The position numbers were made by a program, and so were the translations under genes. 64,000 bases of DNA, from assembly GCF_000023945.1 (NCBI RefSeq), contig NC_013158.1:2294001-2358000 (forward strand), given 5' to 3'. Source of the stretch: Halorhabdus utahensis DSM 12940. GTDB lineage: Archaea; Halobacteriota; Halobacteria; Halobacteriales; Haloarculaceae. Positions 1-46,886 of this stretch are shown here, piece by piece; the stretch's first letter is position 1; every line of letters starts with the position of its first letter. Under the pieces are notes generated by a model, which saw only the letters and a list, made by a program, of their open reading frames with translations, was not told the DNA's origin and searched no databases.

Positions 1-364
1 TTGAACTCACTCGTTCCCGTTCGCTCGCTACGCTCGCTCACCTCCCACTCGCTGCTCAAATCTCCGCCTTAGACGCATAACTGGCGCTGGTCGCTCGCTT
101 CGCTCGCGACGTAGCGCCGCAAAATGTAGCGTCCGGACGGAGTCCCACGCGAGCGAAGCGAGCGTGGGGCACGTCCGGGCGTGAACACGGAGCGAGTGCT
201 GAGCAATGCGAAGCACTCGCGAAGAGTGAACGTCCGGACGGAGATTTGAACTCGCCGAGAAATGCTCGCTTCGCTGCGCGTTCCTCGTCTGCTCAAATCT
301 CCGTCGTGTGTTTTCACATTCCGCAGACTCCTCGCTAACGCTCGTCGTCTTGCGGAATGGAAAA
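1..364. repeat. tRNA-Arg 3'-flank array of partial tRNA copies and hairpins
   Basis: No gene is supported here. The stretch lies immediately 3' of the minus-strand tRNA-Arg and holds partial copies of its 3' end. The 23-nt acceptor/T-arm sequence at 365-387 recurs exactly at 231-253, and its first 13 nt recur at 130-142. Reverse-orientation T-arm fragments (CTCAAATCTCCG) lie at 55-66 and 292-303, so 241-253 can fold back on 291-302. Further inverted repeats include CCCACGC/GCGTGGG around 145-167. Long open frames across this stretch are by-products of the G+C-rich repeats. Confidence 0.75.
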
Positions 365-437
365 CGTCCGGACGGAGATTTGAACTCCGGTCCCTGGCTC
401 CGCAAGCCAAGAGGATAGTCCACTACCCTACCCGGAC
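365..437 (-). tRNA. tRNA-Arg (anticodon GCG)
   Basis: Read on the minus strand, the 73-nt sequence folds into a full cloverleaf. The 7-bp acceptor is GTCCGGG/TCCGGAC with one G-U pair, the T arm is CGGAG-TTCAAAT-CTCCG, and the anticodon loop TTGCGGA gives anticodon GCG, which reads CGC (Arg). CCA is not encoded, as is usual in haloarchaea. An A+T-rich box (CCCTTTATTT on the minus strand, 461-470) sits about 28 nt ahead of the 5' end. The 3' end is repeated downstream at 231-253 and 130-142. Confidence 0.95.
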
Positions 438-5770: not shown

Positions 5771-5884
5771 ACAGAAACCGTACCGGCAGGAACGGGAAAG
5801 CGTATCGATGCGTCGCGACCGCCATCCGGCGACCGGACGAAAGCGAAAGCCCTATCAAATAACTCCGACTACCCTGGAATGCCT

Positions 5885-5957
5885 GCCGCCGTAGCTCAGA
5901 TGGTAGAGCACCACGCTGTTAACGTGGTTGTCCCAGGTTCGAGTCCTGGCGGCGGCG
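5885..5957 (+). tRNA. tRNA-Asn (anticodon GTT)
   Basis: A 73-nt cloverleaf: acceptor GCCGCCG/CGGCGGC, discriminator G, D arm GCTCAGATGGTAGAGC, anticodon loop CTGTTAA (GTT, Asn), T arm CCAGG-TTCGAGT-CCTGG. A box (TCAAATAAC, about 5855-5863) lies about 27 nt upstream. The last 18 nt of the T arm/acceptor recur at 6200-6217. Confidence 0.96.
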
Positions 5958-6217
5958 TGAATTTCTGTGAAATTCACGGCACGTCAGAGCTTGCTCTGAC
6001 GGCGACGTAAAATCGCGAAGCGATTTTCCGGCCCACGAGAACTGCGTAGCAGTTCTCGGGACGGCGTCTCTTGACGATTCTGCGAGGCGTTTCATCGCCG
6101 AGCGATAGCTATCGTCAAGGACGGCGTACCCCAGAGTCGAACACGGAAGTCGCAGCCCGGGAAGCGAGCGTCAGCGAGTGACCCGGAACGTCTTGCATCG
6201 GTTCGAGTCCTGGCGGC
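5957..6217. repeat. hairpin array downstream of tRNA-Asn, ending in a copy of the tRNA 3' end
   Basis: Four perfect hairpins lie in a row within 102 nt: 5957-5977 (9-bp stem), 5982-6001 (8-9 bp), 6009-6027 (8 bp, GAA loop) and 6036-6058 (10 bp, GTA loop). A longer inverted repeat, TTGACGAT (6071-6078) with ATCGTCAA (6111-6118), is flanked by direct repeats of GGACGGCGT. The stretch closes with GGTTCGAGTCCTGGCGGC at 6200-6217, identical to 5936-5953 in the tRNA. No coding potential is evident. Confidence 0.8.
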
Positions 6218-45275: not shown

Positions 45276-45707
45276 GTTTCCTCGCTGCGACTGGCGTGCT
45301 CAAATCTCGCTTCACGCACTACACAACATCAGGAGTCGCGACGCGATGAAACGCGTCGCTTGTGGATTTGAGTTGAAGAAGTGCGACGGCCGAGATTTGA
45401 ACTCGATGGCGAGACGGTCGCTCACTTCGTTCGCGCTGCGACTCGCGTAGTTCAAATCTCTATTACCGCATTCACCCTCGCGCTGAAGCGAGCGACACGC
45501 AAAGCGGTCGCTCGCGGTTTTGCGCTCGGTAGAAGTGCGACGGCCGAGATTTGAACCAGATGGAGACGTTCCGGGCGTGCGCCTTCGCTTCGCTCAGGCG
45601 GTCCGGGCCTGCGACTCCCAGGGTTCAAATCTCTCATCCGCACCGCACAGCGTTCTGGATCGCGACGCGATGAAACGCGTCGCTTGAAAGTTAGAACGCT
45701 GAGAAGG
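45276..45707. repeat. tRNA-Gly 3'-flank array of partial tRNA copies and hairpins
   Basis: No gene is supported. The 3' end of the tRNA-Gly (GTGCGACGGCCGAGATTTGAACTCG, read on the plus strand at 45707-45731) recurs at 45381-45405 (25 nt identical) and 45535-45556 (22 nt). Reverse T-arm fragments TTCAAATCTC follow or precede each copy (about 45300, 45450 and 45620), allowing fold-back. A hairpin GCGACGCG-ATGAAA-CGCGTCGC occurs twice, near 45338-45360 and 45661-45683. The plan is the same as the tRNA-Arg flank at 1-364. Confidence 0.8.
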
Positions 45708-45778
45708 TGCGACGGCCGAGATTTGAACTCGGGTTAGGACCGTGGCAGGGTCCTGTGATACCACTACACCACCGTCGC
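45708..45778 (-). tRNA. tRNA-Gly (anticodon GCC)
   Basis: A 71-nt cloverleaf on the minus strand: acceptor GCGACGG/CCGTCGC, discriminator A, anticodon loop CTGCCAC (GCC), T arm CCGAG-TTCAAAT-CTCGG. A minus-strand TATA box (CTTATATTT, about 45808-45816) lies about 34 nt ahead of the 5' end. Its 3' end is repeated at 45381 and 45535. Confidence 0.96.
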
Positions 45779-45980: not shown

Positions 45981-46886
45981 ATGACGCTCAACGCACTCGT
46001 GCCGTCGTCGCTCTGCCGTGAGGCGGAGGACAAACGTGAGGCGACCCGGAAGATCGGCTACGTGGCCCGCGCGGCCACCGTCTTCCGGGTCGATCGACTC
46101 ATCGTCTACCCCGACCCTGACGGGGCGGGAAGATGGGGCGACGGGTTCGTCGAAACCGTGCTGCGGTACGCCGCCACGCCCCCATACCTCCGAAAGGAGG
46201 CCTGGGAAAGGCGGGACGAACTGGGGTGTGTCGGCGTCCTGCCGCCGCTCCGCGTTGCGACCCAGACCGGCTCCGGATCGGACGATTCGGGGTCGTTAAG
46301 ACAGGGAATCGTGACCGAGGTCGGATCTGATGGGCGCGTCCGGGTCAATTGCGGCATGCAACACCCGATCTCCCTCGCCGTTCCGGGCGACCGGACGATA
46401 AAGGAGGGGGAACGCGTCACCGTCAGGATCTCTTCGAGACGACCGGTTCGCGCGAAGATCGTCGATCAGCCCCCACCGGGCTATCAGGTCGACCGTGCGA
46501 ACCTTGACGCTGCGCTCTCGCGGCCCGACGCCGGCGTACGGATCGCCGCGTCCCGACACGGCCAGTCGCTCACGACCGAGCGACTCGGGCGACTCGCCGG
46601 GACGATCGCGTCGGCTGGCGACATGACAGTCGCCTTTGGCGCGCCGGAGCGCGGCTTGCCGGCTATCCTCGGCGTCGAACCAGGTGCTGTCGACCCGTCC
46701 ACTGTGGACGAGTTGGCGGCAGCCGTCGACGCGGCGGAACGGAATGACGAAACGGTCACCGGATCAGGATCGGACGGACCCCGATTCGACCTTTGGCTCA
46801 ATACGGTTCCCAACCAGGGAAGCGAGGTCGTGCGAACAGAAGAAGCGATGTTCGCCACCCTCGGCCCCCTGACACTCACGGAGTGA
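45981..46886 (+). CDS. SPOUT-class RNA methyltransferase family protein
   Basis: A 301-residue protein of the archaeal COG2106-like SPOUT family. The N-terminus ATRKIGYVARAATVFRVDRL (about 22-41) and RLIVYPDPDG hold the Rossmann-knot start. Residues about 100-170 carry an inserted OB-like domain (GIVTEVGSDGRVRVNCG). The C-terminal knot is seen at TVAFGAPERGLPAILG (about 215). It probably modifies ribosomal or tRNA base(s); the partner RNA is unknown. It sits 7 bp ahead of the L3 gene, a position conserved in haloarchaea as I recall. Confidence 0.8.
   Translation: MTLNALVPSSLCREAEDKREATRKIGYVARAATVFRVDRLIVYPDPDGAGRWGDGFVETVLRYAATPPYLRKEAWERRDELGCVGVLPPLRVATQTGSGSDDSGSLRQGIVTEVGSDGRVRVNCGMQHPISLAVPGDRTIKEGERVTVRISSRRPVRAKIVDQPPPGYQVDRANLDAALSRPDAGVRIAASRHGQSLTTERLGRLAGTIASAGDMTVAFGAPERGLPAILGVEPGAVDPSTVDELAAAVDAAERNDETVTGSGSDGPRFDLWLNTVPNQGSEVVRTEEAMFATLGPLTLTE

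Follow-up and report, generated by a model that had tools for sequence, protein, structure and literature searches.

The 64,000-nucleotide stretch of DNA analysed here (the window, G000:C1:2294001-2358000) derives from the 3.1-Mb chromosome of the haloarchaeon Halorhabdus utahensis DSM 12940 (genome G000), and carries at its left end a transfer RNA (tRNA) gene, tRNA-Arg(GCG), followed by an array of short repeat units that contain copies of its own 3' end. The gene (365..437; ARAGORN, and Rfam RF00005 at 47.8 bits) is encoded on the minus strand, so that window positions 1-364 represent its 3' side; it is the putative insertion target, and its positions 53-73 are the duplicated block. The segment 229-253 is identical to 363-387 (25 nt, exact), a partial copy of 13 nt at 130-142 is likewise exact, and inverted T-arm fragments (CTGCTCAAATCTCCG) are found at 52-66 and 289-303, the spacings between the copies being 101 and 134 bp. 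An earlier examination of the letters alone (the sequence-only reading) had reported this recurrence of the tRNA end at intervals of about 100 and 134 bp, and both observations are confirmed. The copies it placed within the window are real, but the extent given was incomplete, as the array extends beyond the left edge of the window, where more copies are found as far as G000:C1:2293831 (L009 17831), and occupies the whole gap to the convergent gene glyA.

All components of the array lie on the minus strand. The tRNA-proximal unit 1 (231..364, 134 bp) belongs to a class here termed type I. It opens with a hairpin, H1 (310..364; folding), directly 3' of the tRNA end, continues with A', an inverted T-loop/T-stem copy (GACGGAGATTTGA; 293..305; sequence comparison), and a second hairpin, H2, with a 5x5 internal loop, an inner stem and a variable tip (254..292; folding and covariance model), and ends in a direct copy, A, that matches tRNA positions 53-73 and 2 further nt exactly (231..253; sequence comparison). 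A covariance model built on the A'-H2-A segment matches this unit at G000:2294239-2294302 (E=1.4e-5). Unit 2 (130..230, 101 bp; sequence comparison), of type II, holds as its A' an inverted acceptor-strand copy (CGCCCGGACG on the minus strand; 172..181) and a hairpin (CCCACGC...GCGTGGG; 144..168), both read from the sequence, and an A copy (CTCCGTCCGGACG; 130..142; sequence comparison) covering tRNA positions 61-73. A second copy of unit 2 is located left of the window (G000:2293831-2293945; 97% identity over 115 bp). Unit 3 (1..129; sequence comparison), again of type I, crosses the window edge and extends to about G000:2293994. Its A' box (55..66) is the inverted T-arm fragment flagged by the sequence-only reading, and only the start of its A copy (GAGTTCAA; 1..8) falls within the window, the remainder lying outside; both were identified by sequence comparison.

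The same plan recurs behind other tRNA genes. In type I units the order from the tRNA is H1, the inverted 9-nt T-loop box A', H2 and the direct copy A, and the units listed measure mostly about 70-200 bp and contain no open reading frames (ORFs). The A copies, marked by the box GTTC[AG]A, begin at G53 and end at N73 in 112 type I units, with an identity to the own tRNA of 0.96-1.00 over positions 53-73, compared to 0.12-0.46 at positions 43-51 and 0.36-0.62 from position 74 on; the value of 0.83 at position 52 represents a commonly shared G. The search demanded positions 61-73 and the type I definition positions 53-56, leaving 57-60 and the flanks free. The A' box is complementary to tRNA positions 54-62, the match dropping at 63, and in type II copies (n=71) identity begins at 58-61. 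One explanation for the direct-inverted-direct order of copies (A, A', A) around hairpins is that replication or repair generated the units locally, through fold-back or a template switch at the end of the tRNA, and the abundance of hairpins and the tRNA specificity of both A and A' are in line with this. However, H1 and H2 are homologous across many tRNAs and genera and are not copied from the tRNA sequence, and the boundaries are fixed at 53 and 73, which makes formation in place quite improbable.

The A'-H2-A segment folds into a hairpin with an outer stem of 9 bp, in which A' pairs with the T-loop of the A copy, followed by the 5x5 internal loop, an inner stem of 6-8 bp and the variable tip. 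A whole-hairpin MAFFT alignment misplaced the inner stems, and the arms were aligned separately, with an artificial loop in the covariance model. Over 105 matches, 86.6% of the helix cells are paired and 195 cells are changed on both sides compared to 66.8 in shuffles, a signal that collapses when the pairing partner is slid. The inner pairs at columns 18 and 19, free in the search pattern, account for 96 of these 195 cells; columns 20-24 are biased, because the model guided the alignment and an exact-pattern search supplied most of its rows. The conserved T.T mismatch in alignment A3 was given no weight, being fixed by the search pattern itself. An Rfam search of the arrays returned only tRNA up to E=0.1, and nothing within the arrays at gathering scores. 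The proposal of the sequence-only reading that the intervals fold on the T-arm copies is supported by this covariation and by the folding of the whole of unit 1 (z = -8.3).

Such conserved folds could also be maintained for their own sake. According to the strongest rival to an origin by recombination at the tRNA, the units work as RNA or DNA structures downstream of tRNAs, in termination, 3' processing or fork control, and are under selection, being multiplied or deleted by homologous recombination between A copies. The covarying helices are consistent with this, as is the location of H1 directly behind the tRNA, where the folding z over nt 1-45 downstream averages -1.57, compared to 0.07 upstream. 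A function, however, leaves the exact 53-73 copy of each tRNA unexplained, and in the two stem columns that the search did not bias, G-U combinations (4) show no excess over A-C combinations (6), which gives no clear sign of selection on an RNA strand. Selection on the structures is therefore considered an unlikely origin of the arrays, and further observations bearing on it are given below.

The units are widespread in this genome. Among the 42 tRNA genes of G000 detected by the tRNA model, all oriented, 20 have a direct copy of their own 3' end downstream (score of at least 13, within 500 nt) and none has one upstream on either strand. The 3' ends of other tRNAs reach a median best score of only 7-9 in the same places, compared to 13-25 for the own end, and this, together with the absence of upstream copies, shows that the copies are not due to chance. 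Partial tRNA sets gave the same result in G004 (14 of 21) and G003 (12 of 21), both of the same genus, and in G019 of another family (11 of 21), again with no upstream copies. The covariance model finds 39 matches in its own genome, of which 38 are behind tRNA genes, a few sites being read on both strands. A match at 2854349, at first taken for the end of an inserted element, is instead the unit of an intron-containing tRNA-Trp.

Over 295 Halobacteriota genomes, the model is positive in 52 of 53 haloarchaea and in none of the 242 others. The sequence-only reading had named absence of the duplicated motif from all relatives as the outcome that would speak against it, and this presence in nearly all haloarchaea is the opposite. 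In 85k species genomes, an exact pattern fell in named haloarchaea at 79 of the 80 loci listed, including the genera Haloferax, Haloarcula, Natrinema, Halorubrum and Halorientalis, and 73 of 83 such matches are preceded by a same-strand tRNA at a distance of 31-353 nt, the remainder being mostly at locus edges. At L148, L212 and L193 the pattern matches with no tRNA detected in the locus; the match at L193 (Anaerolineaceae) is probably due to chance, while those at L148 and L212 may follow an undetected intron-containing tRNA. A looser pattern gave 16 matches in viral contigs, all apparently palindromes matched on both strands or weak, and none with a haloarchaeal H2. Five IMG/VR contigs (L278, L280, L281, L282 and L286) show long near-perfect palindromes based on a tRNA T-arm motif (GGATTTGAACC...GGTTCAAATCC), matched on both strands, which are not the haloarchaeal unit.

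Orthologous loci of related species differ by entire units adjoining the tRNA. Unit 1 is missing in G003, G004 and G006 of the same genus as well as in G019 and G020 of other families, and in all five genomes the end of tRNA-Arg aligns directly onto the start of unit 2. As unit 1 is absent also in the two genomes of other families, the difference is most simply a gain in G000. The H2 of unit 1 is 94% identical to that of a more distal unit in the G004 version of the array. The tRNA-Ala arrays are nested by their proximal units (G003 < G004 < G000). At tRNA-Met(CAT), the flank tccagattttgcagg lies directly on the tRNA in G004 and G001, representing a precise empty site, and follows two units in G000. 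The same two units are found in G006 with a different flank, which again disagrees with formation of the units in place. In the tRNA-Met of G000 (L040, L102) one acceptor-strand position (GAGTGGGCCCA) is T, whereas C stands there both in the copies downstream of it and in the tRNAs of the rest of the genus. This looks as if the end of this tRNA had mutated since the copies were formed, or an incoming end had taken its place.

In four genomes, pairs of H2 cores at least 90% alike always belong to the same tRNA and never to two different ones, as a crossover at 53|54 would require. The four identical tandem 111-bp units at L268 show a recent amplification and resemble the products of unequal crossing-over, which agrees with selected structures multiplied by recombination between copies. 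Against selection, about half of the tRNAs are without a copy and the orthologous tRNA-Met gains or loses all of its units, which implies that no unit is essential.

Some of the same tRNA genes also harbour larger insertions. At L266 (2324-5514), a 2.9-kb element encoding a Phage_integrase (PF00589, 1.8e-14) is placed between two near-identical units behind tRNA-Gly, and its far end consists of a 42-bp tRNA 3' half followed by a unit; L253 is arranged alike. Both are small integrative elements (~2.4-2.9 kb) in tRNA-Gly(TCC) with a unit copy at the attachment site, the one at L266 carrying an integrase and DUF7342. At L241 (190-2170) the tRNA end is duplicated together with a 103-bp unit, the two copies being 100% identical; the 1.8-kb insert there, behind tRNA-Tyr, has a methyltransferase-like ORF only and no integrase was seen in it. 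A 3.7-kb insert at L267 (tRNA-Phe) repeats at its far end the whole 109-bp unit from the exact tRNA 3' end (shared GCA), a junction other than that at the T-loop. At L248, tRNA-Gly(GCC) is present in two full copies about 2 kb apart, the downstream one again followed by its unit.

As tRNA-integrating elements carry the unit along, they may spread units; that they bring it with them as if it were needed can also be read in favour of a selected structure. They also bear on the sequence-only reading, which had related the repeated 3' ends to successive tRNA-targeted integrations. Successive insertion at the tRNA is supported by the absence of unit 1 from five genomes and by the empty site at tRNA-Met, but the units are not residues of ordinary integrative elements: they form a defined, structured and gene-less family with fixed boundaries at the tRNA end, present behind about half of haloarchaeal tRNA genes. 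Known elements with a tyrosine integrase (e.g. SNJ2-type; review PMC8371274) do, like the units, duplicate the 3' part of a tRNA, and some use the same tRNAs and carry a unit between flanking tRNA copies (L266, L253), so that attachment scars of such elements deleted down to about 100 bp would be one source of the arrays. However, these elements are kilobases long with their own integrase, and the duplication at L266 and L253 is of 42 bp starting at the anticodon loop instead of 53-73. The units lack an integrase, are of the small size given above and, at 20 of 42 tRNAs, have interiors that are conserved in structure and retain no gene remnant. Their derivation from decayed elements is thus very improbable.

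The reading favoured here, held at about even confidence, is that the array consists of short gene-less cassettes inserted successively at the tRNA 3' end, at the T-loop, probably by a tyrosine recombinase. The enzyme would recombine the folded A'-H2-A site, possibly as a single strand and on a circular cassette, with the T-loop of the tRNA, the crossover occurring at about G53|T54 as an integron integrase acts on attC. With each cassette a new 3' end would be brought in, keeping the tRNA intact, and the old end would be pushed downstream and remain as the displaced copy. If the cassette has to leave a functional tRNA behind, a crossover where the T-loop begins would produce just such a fixed block at 53-73. 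Five PF00589 proteins are encoded in G000, none of them beside the tRNA-Arg array. The most obvious candidates for the enzyme are trans-acting integrases of tRNA-targeting elements, or a tyrosine recombinase (G000:C1:149669-150727; L292:270-1331) that occurs in all 53 haloarchaea sampled, nearly always as a single copy, but in none of the 242 other Halobacteriota (E<=1e-40), and whose relatives in PDB are XerD and XerA. A wider proposal, which is more tentative, is that of a cassette system encoded on the chromosome and operating genome-wide in haloarchaea. In it, a conserved tyrosine recombinase would take up folded hairpin cassettes without genes at the T-loops of tRNAs, and each event would replace the tRNA 3' half; such a system would be integron-like but unrelated to IntI, with tRNA genes as attachment sites.

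Several points weigh against insertion of cassettes by recombination. The coincidence of enzyme and units is a single one at the level of the clade, that is one phylogenetic event, for which reason the recombinase is a candidate only, and its distribution may merely reflect an XerA-like dimer resolvase. The family, its anatomy, boundaries and fold, the gain next to the tRNA and the restriction to the clade are shown here, whereas the recombination, its enzyme, the single-stranded substrate and the cassette circle are inferred. Type II copies begin at 58-61 and are without the H2 fold, which calls for a second cut position or a second process. Viral contigs contain 0 matches to the specific pattern, and the tRNA-Arg array has none among plasmid and phage records. 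Finally, deletion between direct A copies could yield part of the presence/absence pattern, the outgroups polarising unit 1 only.

With these reservations, haloarchaeal tRNA genes look like cassette-capture sites resembling bacterial integrons. The attC site of integrons is an imperfect hairpin with outer boxes, an unpaired central spacer, an inner stem and a variable tip, and has GTT at the inner edge of the outer box. The haloarchaeal A'-H2-A hairpin shows each of these elements, including the position of GTT, and the tandem array is enlarged at one fixed, tRNA-proximal end, although the direction is rooted for unit 1 only. It differs in that no IntI gene lies beside the tRNA-Arg array, its neighbour being glyA, in that the box is GTTCRAATCC and not the integron core box GTTRRRY, in the gene-less cassettes, and in that a tRNA T-loop takes the place of attI, with many arrays per genome. 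As intI and cassette genes are lacking and the box is different, the resemblance is one of function and not of membership. Archaeal integrons have been reported in a text that makes no mention of haloarchaea (PMC9668308).

The plan of the type II unit equals that of the tyrT/tyrV repeats of Escherichia coli (rttR/tpr region), with tandem units ending in the tRNA 3' end in both. Repeats of the tyrT type are transcribed (rtT RNA) and encode Tpr. At this locus (NC_000913.3:1287066-1287622, L306), three tandem 178-bp units follow tRNA-Tyr, each closing with 19 nt copied from tRNA positions 58-76 and each with an inverted T-arm/acceptor copy (GGGGAAGGATGAGAAGCTTCGA) and a hairpin ahead of that copy; a further copy of the tRNA end is located between tyrT and tyrV. 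In contrast to the haloarchaeal units, these repeats are restricted to one locus in one bacterium and do not constitute a genome-wide or clade-wide family, the copy includes the encoded CCA, the A' T-loop box GATT[TC]GA is lacking and the sequence is unrelated.

In the open literature, no description of the haloarchaeal unit family was found apart from one sentence on Haloferax gibbonsii LR2-5, in which partial tRNAs directly adjoin a full tRNA (PMC7921747). These are probably the same thing, although that report is without unit structure, family, distribution or mechanism. What was a one-locus curiosity in E. coli thereby becomes a general phenomenon, amenable to tests in the genetically tractable Haloferax. 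If the recombination model is true, essential tRNA genes are repeatedly rebuilt by incoming cassettes, which would be relevant to the status of tRNA 3' ends as integration hot spots and to the evolution of folded single-strand recombination sites. For annotation, A copies may be taken for partial tRNAs or prophage scars.

Two further tRNA genes in the window are followed by copies of their 3' ends. The second tRNA with a downstream array is tRNA-Gly(GCC) (45706..45778, minus strand; tRNA call), with A copies on the same strand at 45535..45556 (L029, +150..171; covariance model match G000:2339544-2339634) and 45381..45405 (L029, +301..325; covariance model match G000:2339390-2339461). Downstream of tRNA-Asn(GTT) (5884-5958), sequence comparison identifies an A copy at 6200..6217 on the plus strand (L015, +242..259). 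At 46327-46426 the window also contains a match to the Rfam L4-Archaeoglobi ribosomal protein leader, which at 72 bits is well over the cut-off, in a haloarchaeon.
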